DNA from: Platycnemis pennipes
Lineage: Eukaryota > Arthropoda > Insecta > Odonata > Platycnemididae
Direction of reading: 5' to 3'
Length of the DNA stretch: 64,000 nt
NCBI GenBank assembly: GCA_933228895.1
Contig: OW121858.1
Location: 31,147,859 to 31,211,858, forward strand
Position numbers and translations under genes: made by a program. Position 1 is the stretch's first letter, and each line of letters opens with the position of its first letter. This document shows, piece after piece, positions 28,984 through 41,860 of this stretch. The notes beneath the pieces were generated by a model. The model was given only the letters and a program-made list of their open reading frames with translations, did not search any database and was not told the DNA's origin.

Positions 28984-29389
28984 GTATGTTCATCCTCTTG
29001 CCGTTGTGCATAGAATTCAAAGAAACACAGTAGCTCAGGGAATATGAAAATAAATTATAAGTTTTATTTGAATAGTTAAATTATGGGAAAATTCATTAGT
29101 TTTTCGGGACAAATATTTTTTTTGGGGAAAGTTCCATATATATGGTTTTGATTTCCTTTCGTCTAATCTGAAGCACAGTGTCTTTCTCAATGGACGAGTC
29201 ATTGTGAAGGTCAACTTTCTTGATATGTGGAGTATTTTATGACATCTTTTTATTAAAAAAATAGATTGACTTGCCCTGAGAACCAATATCTATTTGAAGG
29301 CGCATAAAAAGACTTTATGGTAAGAAATGCTTAATAGTTTATTTGCTAGATACATTGTAATTTATTTGAAACCATGGAAATTACGAATT

Positions 29390-29629
29390 ATGTTTAGTTT
29401 TATGCGGTTGCTTATTGCCTTTCCGTTGCTTCCTGTAGCCTCCGCATCAAGAGCGACTGACTTCAATTCGTCTCCGCAAGCCGACTCATCGCGTTCTACT
29501 GATTTCACAACATCACCAGCAATTGAACCAGTGACATTGACAACTTCGTCAGCAATAGAAGCAAAAGTGATAGCTACATATTTACAGTCATCAAGTCAAA
29601 TGACACAGGGAACAAGTGACGATGATTTT
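29390..29629 (+). pseudogene. Secreted Ser/Thr-rich protein, unit 1 copy, cut by the composite insertion
   Basis: Reads MFSFMRLLIAFPLLPVASAS as a signal peptide, then a Ser/Thr-rich region. It stops in ..GTSDDDF where the composite element enters; the missing EEERVT-like end is at 36526. An extra G near 29376 also shifts the original start, so this copy uses the second ATG. Confidence 0.6.
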
Positions 29630-29831
29630 TGTTAGAGGTTAAATAATATCTTGAGATATCGGCTTTAAACTAAGATGTTTTAATCACGAGTCTCAGACAC
29701 ATCCAAATTCCAATTTACAAATTGAACGACTGACAGAGAGTTGACAACAACAATATAGATAAATAGTTACTGACATAAATAGCAACATATGTTGCCAACC
29801 CATATTTATGTATTAGATTACAACTCTAACA
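29630..29831 (-). repeat. Copia LTR, inverted, left end of the composite
   Basis: Reverse complement of the 202-bp LTR at 35474-35675 and 36324-36525, with a few substitutions that mix those of the two. Begins TGTTAGAGGTTAAAT on plus. Confidence 0.9.
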
Positions 29832-30086
29832 CCCTCACTTAATCTAATAGGTATATATATATAAATCATTAAGATTCTGCAACCAGTGCTTTCTTCCTGT
29901 CATATGGACCGTAGCTCCGGAGTAGATGAACCAGTCAGCTTCACTCGCGATGTGTTTGGCTCCCAAGGCTGCCACAGAGAGAAGAGTTCTCTCCTTTTTC
30001 ATCGCCGTACTCGGTACAGCTGATGGTCCTTGTGCAGTCCTGGACCCATGCGATGAACCGCTACTGTGTGTCTCGTAGTTCCATCT
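29832..30086 (-). pseudogene. Inverted deleted-copia internal fragment (gag/protease region)
   Basis: Minus strand matches 36067-36323: AGATGGAACTACGAG..., the protease-like DWFIYSGATVHMTGRKH segment (active-site D changed to Y compared with the full copy), the AATCTTAATGATTTATA deletion junction, then the polypurine region. It ends on the left at the LTR. Confidence 0.85.
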
Positions 30087-30107
30087 CTCCACAAAAAGCC
30101 CTGCCTC
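30085..30107. repeat. Snap-back repeat arm, paired with 30500-30522
   Basis: 23 nt that are the exact reverse complement of 30500-30522 inside the viral gene (core AGGCAGGGCTTTTTGTGG). The arm lies precisely between the inverted copia arm and the viral 5' end, with a 2-nt overlap (CT, 30085-30086) with copia. Confidence 0.95.
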
Positions 30108-30111
30108 TTAC

Positions 30112-30122
30112 ACACAGAGACG
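30112..30122 (+). other. Phenuivirus-like genome-segment terminus
   Basis: ACACAGAGACG, followed 18 nt later by the start codon of the glycoprotein frame. Phenuiviruses share ACACAAAGAC or ACACAGAGAC at the 5' end of the coding-sense strand of each segment. Preceded by TTAC (30108-30111), which could be untemplated or cap-derived. Confidence 0.7.
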
Positions 30123-30140
30123 AGACAGCAAATTAGCAAC

Positions 30141-31256
30141 ATGCGATTTAGTGTGGTCATGGTGGTTGTCGGGATTGCTATCATTGTGGGATCGTGCCCA
30201 ACTTTTCATCAAAGGGGCGGAGAACTCATTGTTGAACCCTGTGTTGATGTGGTGGTGATAGATGATGCATTGGGCAGGAGAATGTCTTCTTGTGAGACCC
30301 CTCTCAGGATTTATGGTAATGCTTATGTGACCTCCGAGGGTTGTGGACAAGCCTTCTTAGGGAAAATTGATTGTGGCTTGTGGTTGAAGTCTGAGCAAAG
30401 AGAGAAAATGGGCTGTGGTTGGCATTATGTGAACCTGGTGTGGATTATTCCTACTCTCTTATTTGCATACATTACTCTCGCCTCCCTATTCTGTCTGAGG
30501 AGGCAGGGCTTTTTGTGGAGAGGGGGTTGTCTAACCAAAACAACTGATAATCATCACATTAGAGTGGGGGTGATGAAGTTCATCTTACTTTCGATGTGCC
30601 TAAAAGAGGTTACAGGATGTGTGGCACCATACAATAGTTTCATGTTAGGATCTAGCATACGAAGGCAGTATGAGTTGTCAGCTGGGGAGTCTATCTGTCT
30701 TGGGGATGAGAAAATTACTCTTGAAGCCGTGGAGGCACATTACCCTTTGGACTTTTTGTATTACACAACCAGCTATCATGTTGAGCAAGGGTGGTCTGAT
30801 TGGCAATGTAGGGGAGGGGCATGTAACATGGACAAGTGCGCAGAATATGGGTCTAGTGGAAAAGTGTTTGAGACTAAGAGCAGTCCTGATGTGACAATGA
30901 AATTCTGTAGGTTTGGTCATGGCTGCTTTCTAGGCACAATCTGCATGTATGACACCTTGAATTTTAAAATGAATATGTCAGGGATACATGAGGTTTATAA
31001 GGCTTCATTTGGAAAAGCTCAAGTTATTCCACTAGTGGATCCTAGTGGCAAGTGCAAAATTGAGTACATTGCTCAATCTAGCTCCACATTCTTTGATGAG
31101 GCCTCCATTGTTGTGGGGGCAAAGACATCTTACTTATGTAGAGCTCCTGCTCTAAGGGGTCAGCCAAGAGTAGGAGCCTTGGGAGATGTCCAAATATTTG
31201 ACTTGGAAGGAGGGAGTTCCATGATGGACTTTACTGGAATTTGGATGTGTCTGTGA
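30141..31256 (+). CDS. Endogenous phenuivirus-like glycoprotein precursor (truncated Gn-Gc)
   Basis: 371 codons, open. Start chosen at 30141 because it opens with a signal peptide (MRFSVVMVVVGIAIIVGSC) just after the viral terminus; the frame is open further upstream only by chance. Residues ~20-96 are a cysteine-rich Gn-like piece, 97-119 a transmembrane helix, ~144-160 a second hydrophobic stretch suitable as Gc signal, and 161-365 a Gc-like ectodomain with many cysteines, including the CRGGACNMDKC motif (223-233) expected of class II fusion proteins in bunyaviruses. Gn is far shorter than the usual ~450-550 residues, and Gc stops less than halfway, without fusion-domain completion, stem or anchor. 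The last ~8 codons and the stop come from copia LTR. Family assignment from motif, layout and terminus; not searched. It cannot make a complete envelope. Confidence 0.75.
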   Translation: MRFSVVMVVVGIAIIVGSCPTFHQRGGELIVEPCVDVVVIDDALGRRMSSCETPLRIYGNAYVTSEGCGQAFLGKIDCGLWLKSEQREKMGCGWHYVNLVWIIPTLLFAYITLASLFCLRRQGFLWRGGCLTKTTDNHHIRVGVMKFILLSMCLKEVTGCVAPYNSFMLGSSIRRQYELSAGESICLGDEKITLEAVEAHYPLDFLYYTTSYHVEQGWSDWQCRGGACNMDKCAEYGSSGKVFETKSSPDVTMKFCRFGHGCFLGTICMYDTLNFKMNMSGIHEVYKASFGKAQVIPLVDPSGKCKIEYIAQSSSTFFDEASIVVGAKTSYLCRAPALRGQPRVGALGDVQIFDLEGGSSMMDFTGIWMCL

Positions 31257-31317
31257 CTCGTTATTAAAACATCTTAGTTTAAAGCCGATATCTCAAGATA
31301 TTATTTAACCTCTAACA
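31233..31317 (+). repeat. 3' part (85 bp, R-U5-like) of a copia LTR
   Basis: Begins at ACTGGAATTTGG and ends TCTAACA. Matches the last 85 bp of the right LTR (GTGACTCGTTATT variant) better than the middle one. The upstream 117 bp of the LTR are replaced by viral sequence. Confidence 0.9.
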
Positions 31318-31332
31318 GGTTATGGGCCCAGG
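31318..31332 (+). other. Copia primer binding site (initiator tRNA-Met, internal)
   Basis: GGTTATGGGCCCAGG directly after the LTR is complementary to the anticodon stem-loop region of eukaryotic initiator tRNA-Met (TGGGCCCATAACC), the half-tRNA primer type used by copia. Repeated at 35676-35690 behind the middle LTR. Confidence 0.85.
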
Positions 31333-31420
31333 TGACCGAAAAGGACCAGTTGTGCTTCAATAGTACTGCAACATTACGCGAGTGCATTTTTTTTTACGTA
31401 TTGTATCGTTAAAGCGAAAA

Positions 31421-34400
31421 ATGGCTGAGGCGTCAGTTGGAATTGGTTTGCCATCCTTAGAAAAATTGGATGGACGGGACAATTACAATATTTGGAAATT
31501 CCAAATGAAGATGTATTTAGTGCACGAAGGGTTGTGGAGTTGCGTTGAAGGCTACGCCGCAGATGACTCATCCACGAGTGAGCAACGAGCGAAACGTGAC
31601 TCGCGAGCTCTAGCCAAGATAGGTCTTACATTAAAACCGTCCGCTATTGCTCACGTGAGGAATGCAGCAACAGCAAAAGAAGCCTGGGAGAATTTAGAAA
31701 AAGCATACGAAGACAAGGGGCTGACCAGACGTTTAGGCTTACATCGGAAGTTATTCTCCGTAAAACTGGACCAATATCCATCCATGGAGGCATATGTGAG
31801 TGACATTATATGCATTGCTCAAAAATTAGCAGATATTAATGCACCGGTAGATGATGAATTCATAGGCGTAATTATGTTAAACGGGTTGCCAGAGGAGTTT
31901 AATCCAATGATAATGGCATTAGAGAGTTCCGGTACGCCAATAACTAGTGATTTTGTTAAATCCAAATTAATTCAGGACAGTCGGTGGGGCCAAAATGACG
32001 AGTCCGCGTTGTGGGCAAAAAGTAAAGGGGTTTCCGGGCGACAATCTGGTAAAGCAGTGCAAGTGGCTAGAAACGAGTCGTCAAATCCGATTAAGTGCTA
32101 CAAATGTGGGAAATTTGGTCACATTAGAGCCAAATGCAGGAGCAGATGGAACTACGAGACACACAGTAGCGGTTCATCGCATGGGTCCAGGACTGCACAG
32201 GGACCATCAGCTGTACCGAGTACGGCGATGAGAAAGGAGAGAACTCTTCTCTCTGTGGCAGCCTTGGGAGCCAAGCACATCGCGAGTGAAGCTGACTGGC
32301 TCATCGACTCCGGAGCTACGGCCCATATGACAGGAAGGAAGGACTGGTTGCAGAATTTCAATGATGATGAAAAAATTAAGGTTACAGTTGCTAACAATGA
32401 TACATTGAATGGAGAAGGTATGGGTAATGTTCCAATTAAGCTTGAAACTGATGATTTGATTAAAAAGATTACAAATGTAATGTATGTTCCTAATCTAGCG
32501 ACAAATTTGATATCAGTGGGTAAGCTTGTTAAAAAAGGTTTTGTTGTTGTATTTAATGAAAATGGTTGCCAAATGTATGATGCCGATGAATGTATTATAC
32601 AAGGGCAAGTTAAAGTAACTGCATCCAATCGAGATGGGATCTATGTATTAGATCAGGCAACAGAGAATGCTTACAGTAGTGTTGTGGTTAAAGAAACTTA
32701 TAATCTATGGCATAGACGATTAGGTCATTTGAATGGTGTTAGTATGAAGCTTTTAAAACATTTTATGGCAGATGGTATTGATTTTTCTGAGGATAGCTAT
32801 GATGAATGTATTCCATGTCTACAGGGTAAACAGACAAGGAAAAGTTTCAAGAAAACTGGGGGAACCAGGGCAAAAGATCTTCTGGAACTGATCCATTCTG
32901 ATTTATGTGGACCTATGTCAGAATCGTCCTGGAGTGGAGCACGGTATATGTTAACTTTAATTGATGATTTTTCTAGAAAAACGTTTGTCTATTTTCTCAA
33001 AACAAAAGATCAGGTTCCAAGAGTATTTGAGGAATTCAGAAAGATGGTTGAAAGACAAACAGGTAAAGTCATTAAGATCCTGAGATCAGATAATGGCAAA
33101 GAATATGTTAATCAGAATTTTAAGAACATTTTAAAGTCACAGGGGATCAGGCATCAGCTCACTGTCCCATACACCCCTGAGCAAAATGGTGTAGCGGAGA
33201 GAGCTAATAGAACCATTATGGAGAAAGTAAGATGCATGCTGGCGGATACAGGCTGTGGAAAGAAACTATGGGCAGAAGCTGCGAATACTGCTGTATACCT
33301 AAACAACAGGTCTCCACACAAGGCAGTAGTGGGAAAAACACCAGAGGAGGTATGGTCAAATAAAAAGGTTAATATTAGTCATTTACGTGTGTTCGGGTGC
33401 ACTGCATACGTTCATGTACCAAAACAATTACGAAAGAAGCTAGATTTTAAAAGTAAACCATATATTTTTGTGGGATATTGTGACGATACTAAGGGTTATA
33501 GGTTGTTGGATCCTGAAAATCCAGGAAAAATTATTAGGGCACGGGATGTAGTGTTTGTAGAACAACCTATGGTAAAGGATAATCATTTGAATATAGAAAA
33601 TCCTTCATTAAGAGAGGGCCAAGAGTATATTCCAATTATGCAGCAAGAAGATGCAGGTGATGAATCTGAGGTAGAGGAGCAAACTGATTATAATAAATCA
33701 TGTGAGGTTGAGGACAGGGAAGGTATCATTATTACTGCTGAATCTGAAGGTGAGACCGACATGGACGAGAGGGAAAGTGCTGACTTAGAGGATGACTTGC
33801 CAGAGGAGGAGGACAGGCGGTATCCAATCAGAGACAGGAAACCTAAGAGGGATGATGATATGGTCTACTCTTTCTATTGTCAAAATTTTGATGATCCTCA
33901 AAGTGTGGAAGATGCCCTTGATAGGTCTGATCATGATCTTTGGAGGAAGGCAATGAAAGATGAATTTGTTTCTCTTCAAAAGAATTGTACGTGGGAGCTA
34001 GTTGACAGGCCAGTTGGAGTCAATGTAGTTAAATGCAAATGGATCTTCAAACTTAAAGAGGGAATTGATGGGTCCATGAGATATAAAGCCAGACTCGTGG
34101 CTAGGGGTTTCTCACAACGATATGGGCAGGACTTCAATGAGACTTTTGCTCCAGTTGTTAGGTTAACGTCAATTAGAATTTTGTTCGCATTAGCTGCACA
34201 GTTTGATTTTGAAATTGATCATGTTGATATTACTACAGCTTTTCTCAATGGGGAACTTGAAGAAATAGTATTCATGGAGCAGCCAAAATGTTTTGTTGAG
34301 AAAGGCAGTGAGGGTAAAGTATGCAAGCTCAACAAGGCAATTTATGGTCTAAAGCAAGCTGCAAGGTCATGGAACCTAAAAGTTCATGATGTTCTGATTA

Positions 34401-35440
34401 ACTGTGGTTATGTTCGAAGTCAGTGTGATAACTGTGTGTATATATTAAGGAAAGATTGTAAAATTGTCATTATTGCCTTACATGTTGATGATTTCTTTAT
34501 ATTTTCAAATTGTAAAGATGAAACTCAGAGAGTAAAGGAGGCAATTTCAAATCGATTTGAAATGAAAGATCTGGGGTCAGTTAAAGAATGCCTTGGCATG
34601 AGAGTAACCCGAGATCGCAAGAATGGGGTAATAAAGCTAGATCAAAGTAATTATTGCAATAAGATTCTTGCACGCTTTGGCAAGGAGGATTGTATTCCAA
34701 TTGGAACCCCAGTAGAAGTAAATGTTAAGCTGGCTAAAGGAAATCCTAATCAAGGAAGAATTGATTCTTACCAAAGATTAATTGGTGCCTTAATGTACCT
34801 TTCTGTATGCACAAGGCCAGACATAGCATTTGCAGTGAGCTACTTGAGTCAGTTCAATTCGTGCAATAATATTGAGCATATGAAGGCTGCTGAACGTGTA
34901 TTAAAGTACCTTAGAGGAACAAGTGATTACTCTCTGACTTTCAAATCTGATAATGAATGTTCTACACCACATACCAAACTAACCGGGTATGTAGATGCTG
35001 ATTGGGGAGGATGTGTTGTAGATAGAAGGTCTTATACTGGTTGTGTTTTGATGTTGAATGGTGGAAGTATCAGTTGGTTCTCCAGAAAGCAAAAATTAGT
35101 CGCTTTAAGTTCTACTGAAGCTGAATATGTGAGTCTTTGTGAGGGTACAAAAGAAATAATGTATGTTAAGGGATTGTTGAAGGAGATGGGAACTGATATT
35201 GGTACAGTGACGTTGTATAATGACAACCAAAGTGCTGAGAAACTAGTGAAAAATCCTGTTTTTCATGGGAGAACGAAGCACATAGAAATAAAGTATCACT
35301 ATGTGAGGGAAATAGCTCAAAAGAAAGAGATAGAAGTTAAGCACATGTCTACGCAGAAAATGCCTGCTGATTTATTAACTAAAGCTATTCCCAAACCAAA
35401 GCACAAATATTGTACAAGGTATATAATGGGGTTGCCTTAA
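31421..35440 (+). CDS. Copia (Ty1/copia) Gag-Pol polyprotein, intact frame
   Basis: 1339 residues from the ATG at 31421 (MAEASVGIG); an upstream ATG at 31382 adds 13 residues without gag similarity. Gag: LDGRDNYNIWKFQMKMYL (UBN2-type), then the CCHC knuckle CYKCGKFGHIRAKC. Protease: WLIDSGATAHMTG (D-S-G). GAG-pre-integrase: LWHRRLGHLNG. Integrase: DLCGPMSESSWSG..TLIDDFSRKTFVYFLKT, RSDNGKEY, NGVAERANRT (D, D, E). RT: KARLVARGFSQRYG.., HVDITTAFLNGELEE, CIPC-independent LHVDDFFIF (VDD). RNase H: YVDADWGGC, SSTEAEYVSL, LYNDNQSAEKL. Gag and Pol are one frame, as in Drosophila copia. No lesion visible, so it could have been active recently. A polypurine stretch (AAGTGAGGG) precedes the 3' LTR. Confidence 0.97.
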   Translation: MAEASVGIGLPSLEKLDGRDNYNIWKFQMKMYLVHEGLWSCVEGYAADDSSTSEQRAKRDSRALAKIGLTLKPSAIAHVRNAATAKEAWENLEKAYEDKGLTRRLGLHRKLFSVKLDQYPSMEAYVSDIICIAQKLADINAPVDDEFIGVIMLNGLPEEFNPMIMALESSGTPITSDFVKSKLIQDSRWGQNDESALWAKSKGVSGRQSGKAVQVARNESSNPIKCYKCGKFGHIRAKCRSRWNYETHSSGSSHGSRTAQGPSAVPSTAMRKERTLLSVAALGAKHIASEADWLIDSGATAHMTGRKDWLQNFNDDEKIKVTVANNDTLNGEGMGNVPIKLETDDLIKKITNVMYVPNLATNLISVGKLVKKGFVVVFNENGCQMYDADECIIQGQVKVTASNRDGIYVLDQATENAYSSVVVKETYNLWHRRLGHLNGVSMKLLKHFMADGIDFSEDSYDECIPCLQGKQTRKSFKKTGGTRAKDLLELIHSDLCGPMSESSWSGARYMLTLIDDFSRKTFVYFLKTKDQVPRVFEEFRKMVERQTGKVIKILRSDNGKEYVNQNFKNILKSQGIRHQLTVPYTPEQNGVAERANRTIMEKVRCMLADTGCGKKLWAEAANTAVYLNNRSPHKAVVGKTPEEVWSNKKVNISHLRVFGCTAYVHVPKQLRKKLDFKSKPYIFVGYCDDTKGYRLLDPENPGKIIRARDVVFVEQPMVKDNHLNIENPSLREGQEYIPIMQQEDAGDESEVEEQTDYNKSCEVEDREGIIITAESEGETDMDERESADLEDDLPEEEDRRYPIRDRKPKRDDDMVYSFYCQNFDDPQSVEDALDRSDHDLWRKAMKDEFVSLQKNCTWELVDRPVGVNVVKCKWIFKLKEGIDGSMRYKARLVARGFSQRYGQDFNETFAPVVRLTSIRILFALAAQFDFEIDHVDITTAFLNGELEEIVFMEQPKCFVEKGSEGKVCKLNKAIYGLKQAARSWNLKVHDVLINCGYVRSQCDNCVYILRKDCKIVIIALHVDDFFIFSNCKDETQRVKEAISNRFEMKDLGSVKECLGMRVTRDRKNGVIKLDQSNYCNKILARFGKEDCIPIGTPVEVNVKLAKGNPNQGRIDSYQRLIGALMYLSVCTRPDIAFAVSYLSQFNSCNNIEHMKAAERVLKYLRGTSDYSLTFKSDNECSTPHTKLTGYVDADWGGCVVDRRSYTGCVLMLNGGSISWFSRKQKLVALSSTEAEYVSLCEGTKEIMYVKGLLKEMGTDIGTVTLYNDNQSAEKLVKNPVFHGRTKHIEIKYHYVREIAQKKEIEVKHMSTQKMPADLLTKAIPKPKHKYCTRYIMGLP

Positions 35441-35473
35441 TGATTTATATATACCTATTAGATTAAGTGAGGG

Positions 35474-35675
35474 TGTTAGAGTTGTAATCTAATACATAAA
35501 TATGGGTTGGCAACATATGTTGCTATTTATGTCAGTAACTATTTATCTATATTGTTGTTGTCAACTCTCCGTCAGTCGTTCAATATGTAAATTGGAATTT
35601 GGATGTGTCTGAGACTCGTGATTAAAACATCTTAGTTTAAAGCCGATATCTCAAGATATTATTTAACCTCTAACA
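35474..35675 (+). repeat. Copia LTR (middle, shared by full and deleted copies)
   Basis: 202 bp, TGTTAG..CTAACA. Acts as 3' LTR of the full body and 5' LTR of the deleted one. Followed directly by a PBS. Confidence 0.95.
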
Positions 35676-35777
35676 GGTTATGGGCCCAGGCGACCGAAAA
35701 GGACCAGTTGTGCTTCAATAGTACTGCAACATTACGCGAGTGCATTTTTTTTACGTATTGTATCGTTGAAGCGAAAA

Positions 35778-36323
35778 ATGGCTGAGGCGTCAGTTGGAAC
35801 TGGTTTGGCATCCATGGAAAAATTGGATGGACGGGACAATTACAATATTTGGACATTCCAAATGAAGATGTATTTAATGCATGAAGGTTGCGTTGAAGGC
35901 TACGCCGCAGATGACACATCCAAATTAATTCAGGACAGTCGGTGGGGCCAAAATGAGGAGTCCGCGTTGTGGGCAAAAAGTAAAGGGGTTTCCGGGCGAC
36001 AACCTGGTAAAGCAGTGCAAGTGGCTAGAAACGTGGGAAATTTGGTCACATTAGAGCCAAATGCAGGAGCAGATGGAACTACGAGACACACAGTAGCGGT
36101 TCATCGCATGGGTCCAGGACTGCACAAGGACCATCAGCTGTACCGAGTACGGCGATGAAAAAGGAGAGAACTCTTCTCTCTGTGGCAGCCTTGGGAGCCA
36201 AACACATCGCGAGTGAAGCTGACTGGTTCATCTACTCCGGAGCTACGGTCCATATGACAGGAAGAAAGCACTGGTTGCAGAATCTTAATGATTTATATAT
36301 ATACCTATTAGATTAAGTGAGGG
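35778..36323 (+). pseudogene. Deleted copia body (gag and protease remnants)
   Basis: Starts MAEASVGTGLASMEKLDGRD like the full copy. One deletion removes most of gag (..LMHEGCVEGYAADDTSKLIQDSR), another removes the zinc-knuckle start and shifts the frame (stop at 36158), and a large one joins the protease part directly to the end of the polyprotein (..AATCTTAATGATTTATA, microhomology AATGAT). No integrase, RT or RNase H. It retains PBS and LTRs, so it could have been moved by enzymes of a full copy. Confidence 0.9.
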
Positions 36324-36525
36324 TGTTAGAGTTGTAATCTAATACATAAATATGGGTTGGCAACATATGTTGCTATTTATGTCAGTAACTATTTATCTAT
36401 ATTGTTGTTGTCAACTCTCTGTCAGTCGTTCAATTTGTAAACTGGAATTTGGATGTGTCTGTGACTCGTTATTAAAACATCTTAGTTTAAAGCCGATATC
36501 TCAAGATATTATTTAACCTCTAACA
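36324..36525 (+). repeat. Copia LTR (right end of the composite)
   Basis: 202 bp, TGTTAG..CTAACA, followed by the ATTTT duplication and the continuation of unit 1. Confidence 0.95.
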
Positions 36526-36886
36526 ATTTTGAAGAGGAACGAGTTACTTGCCCTTGACATACAGGAGACAAGAAGGTATTAATGCACTACATGACTGATT
36601 AGTTTATTTGTACATAAATGCTACCGCAAACTTAAATGAATAACTTCAGCGATGATTCCCGATTACGTTGTTACTTAGATTCAAGCATTAAAATAATGAA
36701 CTGCCCTTTGCCTTGAAAAAGAAAGATTTTAAGTCAAAATGCATTGCTCCAACATTGAGAAATATTTAAAAAATATTTTTATTTTTATCTTTACAGATTC
36801 TTTCTAAGGCAACATTAGCCTCTGTTGGCGTTTTATCTTTACAGATACTATTTTTATAGCCACATTTACTATTTTTATCTTTACAG

Positions 36887-37073
36887 ATTCTTTCAAAGGC
36901 AACATTATCCTCTGTTGGCGTTGATCGTTTTTCGGTCGGAAAAAAATCGAAGCTAGAGGACTCAACGATGTAGAAGTTCTCTTAGAAGATCACCCCTTTG
37001 TAGTGAAAGACTCGAATCAGTATAGGCTACAGCGTGGCGCAAAGAACATAAAAAATTATTTGAGGAACGTTTG
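36887..37073 (+). pseudogene. ILSKATL exon, unit 1 copy
   Basis: Acceptor TTTATCTTTACAG|ATTCTTTC, reads ILSKATLSSVGVDRFSV. One base missing in the AAAAAA tract (about 36947) breaks the frame before the end. The acceptor with its first 48 bases is also triplicated upstream (36797-36850), giving false acceptors. Confidence 0.6.
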
Positions 37074-37256
37074 ATGTCTATTAAATTATTCGTACACAGC
37101 TAATAACTTGAAAAATTTCACTGAATGGCAAAGTTGTCTTTTGGACAGCATCCATCACCGAGAGTATTTAGAGAAGTATTTACAAACAGGCGCATCCTTT
37201 TGAGCGGTTAAAAATTATGCTCAAAATATGGTTCAGATGCTAACATTCACCAAATC

Positions 37257-37475
37257 ATGGGCAGTAAGCGAAACATGGTCCAGGAAAAGAAAAAATATAG
37301 GTCGCTCAACTGCAGTGGAATGATTTCCGAAAATCGAATTCAAGAAAGGTTCCCGAAGAGGACCTTCAACATTTTGCGAGCAAGCATCCTGGAAGAAACT
37401 GACTTAGAGAAAGAGCTGGAAGCAGTTAGGAAGATTGCCGAGATAAATATGGAGGCAGTGGAAGAGGACAGATGA
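37257..37475 (+). pseudogene. Small unrecognised frame (SGMISENRIQ family), unit 1 copy
   Basis: Basic N-terminal half, then FPKRTFNILRASILEETDLE and an acidic helix-like stretch. The same segment is at 39270-39485 and 41150-41330. Family not recognised; shared by units only, so conservation cannot be judged. Confidence 0.3.
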
Positions 37476-37997
37476 TGGTGCATTTAAGGGTACGGGACTG
37501 GTTGGAATTTGCAGGGAAAAGGAAGTGAGAGCACCACCCTCAAACGCCAACGAAACAGTACAACCAAAGTCCTGAGAGCAGAAACGTGGCGGAAGCTTGG
37601 CTCCGTGTCGTTAGATTCCACGGGTGCGTCGCTTTAACGAGAACAGCCCAGAGAAAGGGGAGTCAAAATGAACATGACGACGGAGGAGGTTGTGAAAGCG
37701 GCGCACGTTAAAGCAAAAAAACATTACGTTATACAAGTCGATCGCCATAAAACATCGGCAACCGCAGCGGCGCAGGTGGTTGTCGAAAATTATATTTGGT
37801 TCATCTTTGACAGTAACTTAAAAATGAGAAAAAGTCCTAAATTCCAAAAAAAACAATATATTCCTCACAAACACAGAAGGAAATCGCCACAAAAGATTTT
37901 TTGAAGATATTAATAAGGACATGAAAAAAAGGGGTATGCGTGTGATATGTGCCACTTCCGTTAGGATGTAAGCATCTACAATATCCAGTAGTAGTAG

Positions 37998-38119
37998 TTG
38001 TAAGGGTTCGTCGACGGCTGAGGTCATTTTGCACCGCTTGCTAGTCTATTTTTTTAAAAATATTTATGAATGCATCATAAAACTTACATTTCACGCTTTT
38101 TTTCTGAATATGCTGAGAT
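37998..38119 (-). mobile_element. Non-LTR 3' end at the unit 1/2 junction
   Basis: Family signature GGTGCAAAATGACCTCAGCCGTCGACGAACCC on the minus strand, then 3' UTR cut off at AGAT (38116-38119), where unit 2 begins. Same structure at 39970-40096. Confidence 0.85.
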
Positions 38120-38225
38120 TGACTTGTCCTGAGAACGAATATCTATTTGAAGGCGCAGAAAATGATTTTTTGGTACAAATGCGCAAACATTTGTTTGCTA
38201 GATACATTTTAATTTCTTTGAAACC

Positions 38226-38508
38226 ATGAAATTACGAATTATGTTTAGTTTTATGCGGTTGCTTATTGCCTTTCAGTTGCTTCCTGTAGCCTCCGCATCA
38301 ACAGGGACTGACTTCAATACGTCTCCGCAAGCCGACTAATCACGTTCTACTGATTTCACAACATCACCAGCAATTGAACCAGTGACATTGACAAATTCGT
38401 CAGCAATAGAAGCAAAAGTGACAGCTACATATTTACAGTCATCAAGTCAAATGACACAGGGAACAAGTGACGATGATTTTGAAGAGGAACGAGTTACTTG
38501 CCCTTGAC
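38226..38508 (+). pseudogene. Secreted Ser/Thr-rich protein, unit 2 copy
   Basis: As 40203-40484 but with a TAA after ..SPQAD (about 38338). Confidence 0.65.
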
Positions 38509-38835
38509 ATACAGGAGACAAGAAGGTATCAATACACTACATGACTGATTAGTTTATTTGTATATAAATACTACCGCAAACTTAAATGAATAACTTCAGT
38601 GATGATTCCCGATTACGTTGTTACTTAGATTCAAGCATTGAAATAATGAAATGCCCTTTCCCTTGAAAAAGAAAGATTTTAAGTCAAAATGCATTGCTCC
38701 AACATTGAGTAATATTTAAAAAATATTTTTATTTTTATCTTTACAGATTCTTTCTAAGGCAACGCTGGCCTCTGTTGGTGTTTTATCTTTACAGATACTA
38801 TTTTTATAGACACATTTACTATTTTTAATTTACAG

Positions 38836-39024
38836 ATTCTTTCTAAGGCAATATTAGCCTCTGTTGGCGTTGATCGTTCTTCGGTCAGAAAAAAAATCGA
38901 GGCTAGCGATCTCAACGATGTAGAACTTCTCTTAGAAGATCACCCCTTTGTAGTGAAAGTCTCGAATCAGTATAGGCTACAGCGTGGCGCAAAGAACATA
39001 AAAAATTATTTGAGGAACGTTTGA
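38836..39024 (+). CDS. ILSKATL exon, unit 2 copy (intact, terminal)
   Basis: 62 codons and a stop after the acceptor ATTTACAG|. Reads ILSKAILASVGVDRSSVRKK, then DLNDVELLLEDHPFVV and NQYRLQRGAKNIKNYLRN. Phase 0, matching the donor at 28983. It is the only one of three copies with an unbroken frame, so if the host gene is functional this copy probably supplies its last exon. Resembles a small helical domain; no family recognised. Confidence 0.5.
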   Translation: MLSKAILASVGVDRSSVRKKIEASDLNDVELLLEDHPFVVKVSNQYRLQRGAKNIKNYLRNV

Positions 39025-39057
39025 TGTCTATTAAATTATTCGTACACAGCTAATAAC

Positions 39058-39273
39058 TTGAAAAATCTCACTGAATGGCGCAGTTGTCTTTTTGACACCA
39101 TCCATCACCTTGAGTATTTAGAGAAGTATTTACAAACAGGCGCATCCTTTTGCGCGGTTACAAATTATGCTCAAAATATGGTTCAGGTGCTAACATTCGC
39201 CAAACCATGGGCAGTAACCGAAACATGGTCCAGGAAAATAAAAAATAGAGGTCACTCGACTGCAGTGGAATGA
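39058..39273 (+). CDS. Unrecognised small frame (NLTEWRSCLFD family), unit 2
   Basis: 71 residues: MKNLTEWRSCLFDTIHHLEY..YLQTGASFCAVTNYAQNMVQ..TFAKPWAVTETW. It follows the ILSKATL exon by 33 bp. Open also in unit 3 (40945-41160), broken in unit 1 (37080-37260). Helical, two cysteines, no signal peptide. Could be an unspliced continuation or 3' UTR that happens to be open. Confidence 0.35.
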   Translation: MKNLTEWRSCLFDTIHHLEYLEKYLQTGASFCAVTNYAQNMVQVLTFAKPWAVTETWSRKIKNRGHSTAVE

Positions 39274-39485
39274 TTTCCGAAAATCGAATTCAAGCAAGGT
39301 TTCCGAAGAGGACCTTCAACATTTTGCGAGCAAGCATCCTGGAAGAAACTGACTTAGAGAAAGAGCTGGAAGCAGTTAGGAAATTTGCCGAGATAAATAT
39401 GGAGGCGGTGGAAGAGGACAGTGTTCTCAAAGGGGTGCATTTAAGGGTACGGGACTGGTTGGAATTTGCAGGGAAAAGCAAGTGA
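39270..39485 (+). CDS. Unrecognised small frame (SGMISENRIQ family), unit 2
   Basis: 71 residues starting MISENRIQARFPKRTFNIL, then an acidic coiled-coil-like part ETDLEKELEAVRKFAEINME and a C-terminal VRDWLEFAGKSK. Overlaps the end of the previous frame by 4 bases (ATGA). Family unknown. Confidence 0.3.
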   Translation: MISENRIQARFPKRTFNILRASILEETDLEKELEAVRKFAEINMEAVEEDSVLKGVHLRVRDWLEFAGKSK

Positions 39486-39969
39486 CAGCATCACGCTCAA
39501 ACGCCAAAGAAACAGTACAAGCAAGGTTCTGAGACCAGAAACGTGGCAGGAGCTTGGAAACGTGGCGGGAGCTTGGCTCCGTGTCGTTAGATTCCACGGG
39601 TGCGTCGCTTTAACGAGAAAAGCCTAGAGAAAGGGGATTCATAACGAACATGACGACGGAGGAGGTTGTGAAAGCGGCGCACGTTAAAAGCAAAAAAACA
39701 TTACGTTATACAAGTCGATCGCCATAAAACATCGGTAACCGCAGCGGCGCAGGTGGTTGTCGAAAATGATATTTGGTTTATCTTTGACAGTTACTTAAAT
39801 ATGAGAAAAAGTCCTAAATTCCAAAAAAAAACAATATATTCCTCACAAACACAGAAGGAAATCACCACAAAAGATTTTTTGAAGATATTAATAGGGACAT
39901 GAAAAAAAGGGGTAAGCGTGTGATATGTGCCACTTCCGTTAGGATGTAAGCATCTACAATATCCAGTAG

Positions 39970-40096
39970 TAGTATTTAAAGGGTGCGTCGACGGCTGAGG
40001 TCATTTTGCACCGCTTGCTAGTCTATTTTTTTAAAAATATTTATGAATGCATCATAAAACTTACATTTCACGCTTTTTTTCTGAATATGCTGAGAT
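39970..40096 (-). mobile_element. Non-LTR 3' end at the unit 2/3 junction
   Basis: As 37998-38119; cut off at AGAT (40093-40096). Confidence 0.85.
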
Positions 40097-40202
40097 TGAC
40101 TTGTCCTGAGAACGAATATCTATTTGAAGGCGCAGAAAATGATTTTTTGGTACAAATGCGCAAACATTTGTTTGCTAGATACATTTTAATTTCTTTGAAA
40201 CC

Positions 40203-40484
40203 ATGAAATTACGAATTATGTTTAGTTTTATGCGGTTGCTTATTGCCTTTCAGTTGCTTCCTGTAGCCTCCGCATCAACAGGGACTGACTTCAATACGTC
40301 TCCGCAAGCCGACTCATCACGTTCTACTGATTTCACAACATCACCAGCAATTGAACCAGTGACATTGACAAATTCGTCAGCAATAGAAGCAAAAGTGACA
40401 GCTACATATTTACAGTCATCAAGTCAAATGACACAGGGAACAAGTGACGATGATTTTGAAGAGGAACGAGTTACTTACCCTTGA
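40203..40484 (+). CDS. Secreted Ser/Thr-rich small protein, unit 3 copy (intact)
   Basis: 93 residues. MKLRIMFSFMRLLIAFQLLP is a signal peptide with cleavage likely after ASA. The mature part is ~70% Ser, Thr, Ala and acidic residues, mucin-like, ending EEERVTYP. In the genome each copy is preceded by AT-rich DNA without obvious TATA box. Only this copy lacks lesions. It could be a real secreted product or a fortuitous frame of the repeat unit. Confidence 0.45.
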   Translation: MKLRIMFSFMRLLIAFQLLPVASASTGTDFNTSPQADSSRSTDFTTSPAIEPVTLTNSSAIEAKVTATYLQSSSQMTQGTSDDDFEEERVTYP

Positions 40485-40723
40485 CATACAGGAGACAAGA
40501 AGGTATCAATACACTACATGACTAATTAGTTTATTTGTACATAAATCCTACCGCAAACTTAAATGAATAACTTCAGTGATGATTCCCGATTACGTTGTTA
40601 CTTAGATTCAAGCATTAAAATAATGAAAAGCCCTTTGCCTTGAAAAAGAGAGATTTTAAGTCAAAATGCATTGCTCCAACATTGAGAAATTTTTAAAAAA
40701 TATTTTTATTTTTATCTTTACAG

Positions 40724-40912
40724 ATTCTTTCTAAGGCAACATTATCCTCTTTTGGCGTTGATCGTTCTTCGGTCAGAAAAAAATCGAAGCTAGAGGACTC
40801 AACGATGTAGAAGTTCTCTTAGAAGATCACCCCTTTGTAGTGAAAGACTCGAATCAGTATAGGCTACAGCGTGGCACAAAGAACATAAAAAATTATTTGA
40901 GGAACGTTTGAT
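40724..40912 (+). pseudogene. ILSKATL exon, unit 3 copy
   Basis: As unit 2, with a one-base loss in the A tract (about 40783) that ends the frame at GATGTAG. Confidence 0.6.
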
Positions 40913-40944
40913 GTCTATTAAATTATTCGTACACAGCTAATAAC

Positions 40945-41160
40945 TTGAAAAATCTCACTGAATGGACCAGTTGTCTTTTTGACAGCATCCATCACCTAGA
41001 GGATTTAGAGAAGTATTTACAAACAGGCGTATCCTTTTGCGCGGTTACAAATTATGCTCAAAATATGGTTCAGGTGCTAACATTCGCCAAATCATGGGCA
41101 GTAACCGAAACATTGTCCAGGAAAAGAAAAAATAGAGATCGCTCGACTGCAGTGGAATGA
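40945..41160 (+). CDS. Unrecognised small frame (NLTEW family), unit 3
   Basis: 71 residues, like 39058-39273 with ~10 substitutions, most conservative. Confidence 0.3.
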   Translation: MKNLTEWTSCLFDSIHHLEDLEKYLQTGVSFCAVTNYAQNMVQVLTFAKSWAVTETLSRKRKNRDRSTAVE

Positions 41161-41860
41161 TTTCCGAAAATCGAATTCAAGAAAGGTTTCCGAAGAGGAC
41201 CTTCAACATTTTGCGAGCAAGCATCCTGGAAGAAACTGACTTAGAGAAAGAGCTGGAAGCAGTTAGAAAGATTGCCGAGATAAATATGGAGGCAGTGGAA
41301 GAGGACAGTGTTCTCAAAGGATGGTGCATTTAAGGGTACGGGACTGGTTGGAATTTGCAGGGATAAGGAAGTGAGAGCATCACGCTCAAACGCCAAAGAA
41401 AAGGTACAAGCAAGGTTCTGAGACCAGAAACGTGGCGGGAGCTCGGAAACGTGGCGGGAGCTTGGCTCCGTGTCGTTAGATTCCACGGGTGCGTCGCTTT
41501 AACGAGAACAGCCCAGAGAAAGGGGAGTCAAAATGAACAAGACGACGGAGGAGGTTGTGAAAGCGGCGCACGTTAAAAGCAAAAAAACATTACGTTGTAC
41601 AAGTCGATCGCCATAAAACATCGGCAACCGCAGCAGCGCAGGTGGCTGTCGAAAATTATATTTGGTTCATCTTTGACAGTTACTTAAAAATGAGAAAAAG
41701 TCACAAATATAGTCCAAAAAGTCCCAAACAGTATTTTCCTTATTAACACAGAAGGAAACCACTACAAGATTTTTTGAAGATATTAATAAGGACTTGAAAA
41801 AAGGGGTATGCGTACGATATGTGCCACTTCCGTTGGGATGTTAAAATCTACAATATCCAG

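Follow-up and report, generated by a model that had tools for sequence, protein, structure and literature searches.

Genes of RNA viruses, above all envelope genes, enter genomes and long terminal repeat (LTR) elements by a route that is mostly inferred from end products. How such a gene can arrive is the question raised by a 6,896-bp insert in the odonate Platycnemis pennipes. It is located in a 64,000-nt stretch of contig C12 (the whole stretch analysed, hereafter the window), where part of a glycoprotein-like gene lies among pieces of a copia retrotransposon and of a deleted relative of it. It was originally predicted that copia, deleted copia and viral RNA had been combined by template switching and that the resulting 6.9-kb chimera had been joined to the chromosome by integrase in one event; the analysis supported this as the best reading. 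That copia, deleted copia and viral sequence entered together in a single integration, after reverse transcription with template switching and a tail-to-tail join of minus-strand cDNAs and through the action of the copia integrase, is quite likely because the insert has one pair of target-site duplications (TSDs), LTR-derived ends and no inner 5-bp duplications, its empty site is preserved, and chimeras lacking virus and bounded by exact TSDs are present in the same family.

The order of the pieces, their coordinates and the outer duplication were found as predicted (Table 1). Thirteen candidate units were tested for a flanking 5-bp duplication, which was found only around the whole insert (1 of 13). 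Target duplications belonging to the inner elements, which the original prediction had named as the sign of independent insertions, were looked for, and 0 of the 12 inner units had one. The sequence obtained by joining the flanks without the insert, GACGATGATTTTGAAGAGG, was intact twice in the window, once in each of the two sister array units where an empty site had been predicted. Retroposition by long interspersed nuclear elements (LINEs) is marked by poly-A, a LINE-type TSD and the lack of LTR ends; this insert had no poly-A at its ends, which instead were LTR ends with a 5-bp TSD. LTR-mediated retroposition and LTR-borne endogenous viral elements (EVEs) are distinguished by LTR ends and an element-type TSD around a copy of a foreign RNA, as observed here.

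An inverted LTR arm was indeed present at the left end, but it was longer than claimed, comprising the whole 202-bp LTR and 255 bp of the deleted-copia 3' end. This arm (29630-30086) is the reverse complement of 36071-36525, and over 457 aligned columns the differences were one TA unit and three LTR sites. The predicted partial LTR was also found. Two features had been absent from the original prediction, namely the 23-nt inverted viral patch and the U5 (unique 5' region) at both outer ends. The 23-nt inverted match was compared with 1000 shuffles, the longest match of which was 12 nt (0 of 1000 above). At the switch between deleted copia and virus, a possible microhomology was legible as the shared AG (2-nt overlap).

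Table 1. Features of the insert and its target site in the window (LTR positions here and in the text follow the numbering of the 202-bp LTR; R, repeat region; PBS, primer-binding site)
Feature	Position	Strand	Remarks
Left target-site duplication	29625-29629		ATTTT
Complete 202-bp copia LTR, inverted	29630-29831	-	U5 end outward
Inverted deleted-copia 3' part, 255 bp (putative left minus-strand cDNA)	29832-30086	-	reverse complement of 36071-36323: 0 substitutions, one TA unit
23-nt inverted viral patch	30085-30107	-	exact complement of 30500-30522; AG overlap with deleted-copia arm
TTAC, 4 nt at polarity switch	30108-30111		assigned to no template
Viral segment	30112-31232	+	begins with phenuivirus-like antigenome terminus ACACAGAG
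Open frame, 371 codons + stop	30141-31256	+	Gn-like, then Gc-like (Cys at 30618), weakly Phlebovirus_G2-like; stop inside LTR
Partial LTR, positions 118-202 (R-U5 like)	31233-31317	+	100% to right LTR over 85 nt
Complete copia interior	31318-35473	+	PBS-like GGTTATGGGCCCAG at start; single open gag-int-RT frame 31421-35440
Inner LTR	35474-35675	+	
Deleted copia interior (non-autonomous family member)	35676-36323	+	
Right LTR	36324-36525	+	U5 end outward; haplotype with many exact genomic copies
Right target-site duplication	36526-36530		ATTTT
Empty target site, sister unit 1	38476-38480		ATTTT
Empty target site, sister unit 2	40453-40457		ATTTT

The insert lies in a tandem array of ~1.95-kb units (29263-41500), each with a small secreted-like open frame. 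This frame is broken by the insert in one unit and has an in-frame stop in sister unit 1.

The carrier was identified as a Ty1/copia element. Its 1,338-aa reading (from codon 2) matched Retrotran_gag_2 (PF14223) at 28-191, rve (PF00665) at 489-585 and RVT_2 (PF07727) at 855-1098; integrase precedes reverse transcriptase in one gag-pol frame, which is the Ty1/copia order. The TG...CA LTRs and the 5-bp TSD are likewise those of Ty1/copia, and an exact 5-bp TSD was present at this insert and at 45 of 53 other family loci. The PBS-like GGTTATGGGCCCAG directly follows two of the LTRs and is a putative tRNA primer site. Copia uses an internal initiator-tRNA-Met primer site. A stretch of the copia interior (32500-35400; 2,901 nt) recurred with 100% identity at C10:88320298. 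The element there is an ordinary one, flanked by ATAAT as its own TSD, with matching LTRs and a leader somewhat unlike that of the insert; no deleted copia was found in the 1.3 kb behind it and no virus in the stretches examined. The deleted copia, a non-autonomous relative, occurs at many loci in units of ~1,050 bp with the structure LTR-deleted copia-LTR. The family is abundant, since LTR searches of the genome gave 328-329 first-look candidates; the best 40 were scored each time, and the resulting loci are biased towards close LTRs.

The ends of the insert were compared with those of its relatives. Ordinary elements start with TGTTAGAGTT (U3, the unique 3' region) and end with ACCTCTAACA (U5). 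This insert starts with TGTTAGAGGT, the reverse complement of the U5 end, and also ends in U5, so both outer ends are U5. The 53 other loci comprised 27 from the set L011-L050 (eight loci that were the insert's own copies were excluded, and the two LTRs of one element were merged), 21 from L067-L087 and five full copia loci (C10, C2, C6, C11 and C4; LTR stretches), with exact TSDs at 26 of 27, 15 of 21 and 4 of 5, respectively. Without an exact TSD or unbounded were L039 (imperfect), L067, L070, L071, L074, L075, L077 and the copia at C4:102836143. For L014 (in which the first base of the LTR is altered), L027, L044, L045, L073 and the full copia elements, the TSD was identified by inspection of the flanking sequence instead of by script. 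Among the 45 TSD-verified loci, 43 were U3...U5 (including 8 solo LTRs; LTR orientation was used to class three loci in which an end base is changed), two were U5...U5 (L012 and L038), and none was U3...U3; the figure of 2 in 45 describes the best-scoring part of the family, which is not a random sample, and gives no genome-wide rate.

Each of the three U5...U5 inserts contained one polarity switch, and the sequence between either end and the switch was entirely antisense when read from that end. In this insert, LTR, deleted copia and 23 nt of virus lie to the left of the switch, and LTR, deleted copia, LTR, copia, R-U5 to LTR position 118 and 1.1 kb of virus lie to the right. Locus L012 (1501-2112) is a 612-bp insert without virus, flanked by TAGAT, with LTR and polypurine region on the left. 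Its right side runs through U5-R to LTR 114, jumps at a GTAAA microhomology to position 309 of deleted copia and continues back to PBS and the last LTR bases; the two sides of the insert are joined at TCTAA, a 5-nt microhomology read by eye. Locus L038 (1501-2456), a 956-bp insert flanked by TTTTC and also free of virus, has LTR, deleted copia, PBS and ~14 nt of U5 on one side and U5-R to LTR 105 on the other, so that an inverted R-U5 replaces the 5' LTR of a deleted copia; the join, GTTAAAT/GTTCAAT, is a microhomology of 6 of 7 nt, again read by eye. This polarity rule is best read as the expected outcome if two minus strands, each primed by a tRNA, were joined at their 3' ends, and such a tail-to-tail join would explain why U5...U5 occurs without U3...U3. 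On balance, the copia family seems to have a regular side route in which two such strands are joined 3'-3' and integrated via two U5 ends, with polypurine-tract priming of the plus strand bypassed; it would be a natural trap for viral RNA.

Four partial LTRs bearing U5 started at position 118 in this insert, 114 in L012, 105 in L038 and 112 in L061, all near one presumed RNA 5' end. These starts adjoin TCAGTC at LTR 99-104, which we take to be an initiator-like motif. We take the copia/virus switch to have happened at the RNA 5' end or near it, the normal place for strand transfer.

Chimeras were also found at other loci of the family. L045/L063 (C3:13461564-13465880) reads LTR-deleted copia-LTR (1-40)-copia within one TSD pair, CCTTT, and contains no virus; L027+L090 consists of three LTRs alternating with two deleted copias, flanked by TATTT at either end (the two stretches read are separated by 156 bp of unread sequence). 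L073+L088 (C10:99637592), with CATTT on both sides, holds three full LTRs, an internal U3 hairpin and several LTR pieces, and at L061 (C3:72808630) the 3' LTR (1-196) is followed by a second R-U5 (112-202). Judging from the exact TSDs of non-viral chimeras, template switching followed by integration is recurrent in this copia family, also without virus. A separate observation was made at L070+L089 (C1:37219139), where an LTR and 40 nt of leader run into a piece of copia pol in antisense orientation; the rest of the 5.7 kb read contained neither another LTR nor another match to the family.

When the genome was searched for the copia-LTR-deleted copia tandem, none was found beyond the three copies of the insert described below among the best 40 of 342 candidates scored. 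Within the same 40, eight other copia 3' ends stopped at query position 420-430, i.e., at the LTR end. The junction was therefore probably formed in the same event.

The viral gene stood up in part: a Gn-Gc-like frame was present, but only as a 5' fragment of 371 codons with its stop in the LTR, and its family assignment is weak. The terminus ACACAGAG at 30112 lies 29 nt ahead of the ATG; it is 8 nt at one end only, the other terminus falling outside the insert. It corresponds to the conserved segment terminus of Phenuiviridae M as found in severe fever with thrombocytopenia syndrome virus (SFTSV) and Heartland virus (HRTV). In the part of PMC4031632 consulted (Table 2), the antigenome-sense 5' end is ACACAGAG in 5 of 18 phlebovirus segments, including SFTSV and HRTV M, and ACACAAAG in the rest. 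Read from the sequence, the frame seems to encode first a short, Gn-like portion that includes a hydrophobic stretch and then a Cys-rich, Gc-like one. The sole Pfam match of the latter was the class II fusion domain Phlebovirus_G2 (15.7 bits, E 0.0076; collinear, residues 28-111 to 52-135), which was matched by 0 of 6 shuffles with Cys fixed. Nothing useful was found in PDB, and NCBIfam gave one chance match (E 0.24). The CpG observed/expected ratio of the segment was 0.21, a value equally low in 1 of 607 window tiles outside the region. The captured gene is thus filed as phenuivirus-like, short of being called a phenuivirus, because no relative was found for a tree.

The original prediction had proposed a genome search for the same junctions. 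Across the 1.79 Gb and 88 contigs of the host assembly, three 100% matches to the viral segment were found, all on C12, at 31.178 (the window), 31.534 and 32.250 Mb. All three copies had the same 6,896-bp insert, TSD and junctions, and their viral parts showed 0 differences in 1148 nt; they differed at six sites in the copia interior and two in the left LTR. The flanks were duplicated too, over 20.8 kb at 99.5% for one copy and over 16.2 kb at 99.1% plus 11.5 kb at 99.9% for the other, and the empty site was also present inside each of the two other C12 stretches. Since identical viral DNA and junctions lie in duplicated blocks, the best reading is one integration that was afterwards duplicated twice along with its flanks; a one-off assembly chimera is very unlikely. 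The insert looks young, as suggested by arms free of substitutions outside the three LTR sites and by the identity of the viral part in the three copies.

More generally, long blocks are present three times at ~99% or more on C12 (31.178, 31.534 and 32.250 Mb). The 32.250-Mb copy has ~70 private differences in a 36-38 kb stretch, resembling conversion between array units; beyond that stretch, private differences among the three copies were few and star-like.

The LTR variants were examined as markers of the templates. Among the best 40 of 328 candidates scored, an exact match to the inner-LTR haplotype occurred in this insert alone, where all three copies have it as inner LTR and two of them also as left LTR. 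Either a common template or conversion at a later time would produce such sharing, and it does not discriminate between them. For the left LTR of the window, the best 40 scored contained no further exact copy. Deleted-copia pairs carry exactly the right-LTR type in a sample biased by the use of the right LTR as query, and the ordinary elements L079, L081 and L082 have LTR haplotypes mixed within one element. A two-parent LTR mosaic, with a crossover at the RNA 5' end and TT-alpha LTRs predicted on the deleted copia, was considered and dropped, the right-LTR type being common on deleted-copia pairs; it was further undone by the variation of the left LTR among the three copies and by the mixed haplotypes in ordinary elements.

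From this structure, we infer a single shared particle, a template order, mutual priming of the cDNAs and a phenuivirus-like source of the viral RNA, as follows. A copia-family particle would have held full-length copia RNA, deleted-copia RNA and plus-sense glycoprotein-segment RNA (mRNA or antigenome) of a phenuivirus-like virus, and two tRNA-primed minus-strand cDNAs would have been made. The left cDNA would have copied the LTR and ~255 nt of deleted-copia RNA, switched to viral RNA at the 2-nt overlap and copied 23 nt. The right cDNA would have copied deleted copia, LTR and full copia to ~17 nt short of the presumed RNA 5' end (LTR 118), and would then have switched to viral RNA and copied 1.1 kb up to the viral 5' terminus. 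The two 3' ends may have met and each been extended on the other, giving a linear duplex with two U5 ends that the copia integrase could insert with a 5-bp duplication.

Several observations weigh against this account in whole or in part. R-U5 ends are normally degraded after ordinary priming; since such ends were copied here, more RNA molecules than a dimer were likely needed. A self-priming hairpin of the right cDNA accounts for the 23-nt patch about as well, and the TTAC at the join is assigned to no template. Some partial LTRs start away from the RNA start (L071 from position 8; L067 and L077 from position 3), and U3-side pieces occur in L045 and L073 (1-40, 1-59 and 1-29), while L053 holds 1-138. 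The templates are not phased by LTR variants, because the right-LTR haplotype is common on deleted-copia pairs and haplotypes are mixed in some ordinary elements, and the first test of the two-parent model failed. Moreover, the left LTR was probably altered by local LTR conversion, since at 29720 and 29735, both of which separate the right from the inner LTR, the window has T and T and the other two copies have C and A as in the inner LTR. As for the viral source, the Phlebovirus_G2 score lies below the gathering cut-off of 22.9 bits, and because 2 of the 6 Cys-fixed shuffles matched other families (E 0.12 and 0.23), E 0.0076 is little above noise. No relative of the fragment was found in protein searches (371-aa query at E <=0.01; X-padded at E <=1) or in an IMG/VR scan, and the AlphaFold2 model of the 212-aa Gc-like piece was useless (predicted local distance difference test score, pLDDT, 38).

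Of the competing explanations, the hairpin fares best, and it is possible if somewhat doubtful. The right cDNA, having reached the viral 5' end, would have folded back, copied 23 nt and jumped to deleted-copia minus-strand cDNA. The inverted match does run beyond the 23 nt, to 34 nt at 91%, and a hairpin within a TSD-bounded insert is known from L073. However, pairing at the fold-back point is ordinary, with 27 of 1072 positions scoring equally, and such folding is not required for L012 or L038.

It is unlikely that a single read-through RNA from an older copia-LTR-deleted copia tandem provirus served as the template of the right cDNA, so that only the viral and left-arm switches took place in the particle. 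Three-LTR tandems can integrate as units in this family, as seen at L027+L090 with the reservation of its unread 156 bp, and C6:16300630 has a second junction of the deleted copia-LTR-deleted copia type. Nevertheless, a full-length match to the copia-LTR-deleted copia junction was found only in the three insert copies within the 40 candidates scored, and the 100% copia relative on C10 is an ordinary element with no deleted copia within 1.3 kb behind it. A parent tandem since lost, left unassembled or carried by the other haplotype would escape this comparison. The chances appear similarly low that nuclear end joining first linked separate DNA pieces, namely cDNAs and viral DNA (vDNA), into a product that integrase went on to insert. 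End joining would also yield short microhomologies at the joins, but it does not predict junctions at or near RNA 5' ends (LTR 105-118 and the viral terminus) or a common polarity rule.

A host or retroelement env-like gene of non-viral origin is quite improbable as the source of the captured sequence. Its weak homology and the failure to find a viral relative would fit such a source, whereas the RNA-virus-like terminus ahead of the ATG and the strong CpG depletion relative to the rest of the window do not, and the only three genomic matches are all inside the insert. Still less credible are nested independent insertions with later inversion, or ectopic LTR recombination: inverted and direct LTRs do occur together and conversion between LTRs is probable, but the single TSD pair, the 0 of 12 inner units with a 5-bp duplication and the shared inner LTR argue against them. 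An assembly artefact can be all but dismissed, for although large inverted arms are hard to assemble and the insert is known here from the assembly, the same junctions and TSDs recur three times along one contig, at spacings of 0.36 and 0.72 Mb, each time with small differences of their own.

The single integration of copia, deleted copia and viral sequence can now be placed beside known systems. Chimeras of retrotransposons and RNA viruses are, as a kind, already established in the sources consulted in part, as had been anticipated. In the integration of lymphocytic choriomeningitis virus (LCMV) with an intracisternal A-particle (IAP) element (Geuking et al. 2009, as described in PMC3205384), an LTR retrotransposon likewise recombined with a non-retroviral RNA virus and was integrated; that was an experimental infection, whereas this insert comes from a genome assembly, involves two retrotransposon RNAs, has every junction legible and ends in U5 on both sides. 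A cell fusing agent virus (CFAV)/Ty3-gypsy EVE and hybrid episomal DNA of Sindbis virus (SINV) with Ty1 and Ty3 have been reported in Aedes cells (PMC6797480). There too, arthropod LTR elements were joined to RNA viruses, copy-choice was proposed and Ty1 hybrids were seen, but the viruses were a flavivirus and an alphavirus, and U5...U5 ends do not appear in the consulted parts of that source. LTR-mediated retroposition of cellular mRNA (Tan et al. 2016, as summarised in PMC5408686) shares template switching at microsimilarities in the particle and integration by integrase; here, viral RNA, two retrotransposon RNAs and, presumably, tail-to-tail minus strands were involved.

LTR elements linked to glycoproteins of RNA viruses offer a second comparison, again from the parts of the sources consulted. 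Atlas virus and the belpaoviruses combine an LTR element with phenuivirus-like Gn-Gc sequence, but their env is working and stands at the end of the BEL/Pao polyprotein, while here a truncated 5' fragment lies upstream of the copia body (PMC9094657). Anakin, a chuvirus glycoprotein in BEL-Pao (PMC7642597), likewise links an RNA-virus glycoprotein to an LTR element; it differs in virus family and in having many copies, compared with a single event here. EVEs near LTR elements have been reported (PMC5497376), among them AeBunya1, a bunyavirus-like sequence embedded in a full-length Pao-Bel of Aedes aegypti; it belongs to another LTR superfamily, and its junctions are not described in the consulted parts of that source. 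An env-bearing LTR element carries env downstream of pol within one LTR pair and becomes multi-copy by transposition. In this insert, the viral piece is upstream of a truncated 5' LTR, and the three copies are duplicates of one insertion. As far as seen in the literature consulted, which included no search aimed at U5...U5 integrants, the U5...U5 form with virus-free relatives and its base-level record are new, as is the combination of two retrotransposon RNAs with a phenuivirus-like glycoprotein piece.

The insert documents a reverse transcription route for a glycoprotein fragment down to single bases: the order of the switches can be read, and relatives without virus in the same genome have the same ends. 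According to the part of PMC9094657 consulted, it is unclear whether the phenuivirus-like env of the belpaovirus ancestor was acquired by splicing or as a substrate of reverse transcriptase; the insert bears on this question, yet it is no working env element, since the viral piece is truncated and the copia has no 5' U3. It preserves, base by base, one way in which a genome can acquire a viral gene, and its simple signature of U5...U5 ends, one polarity switch and an element-type TSD can be counted in any genome. If the side route of this copia family is real, it can set an envelope gene beside a retrotransposon in one step, each strand being free to finish on any RNA in the particle.

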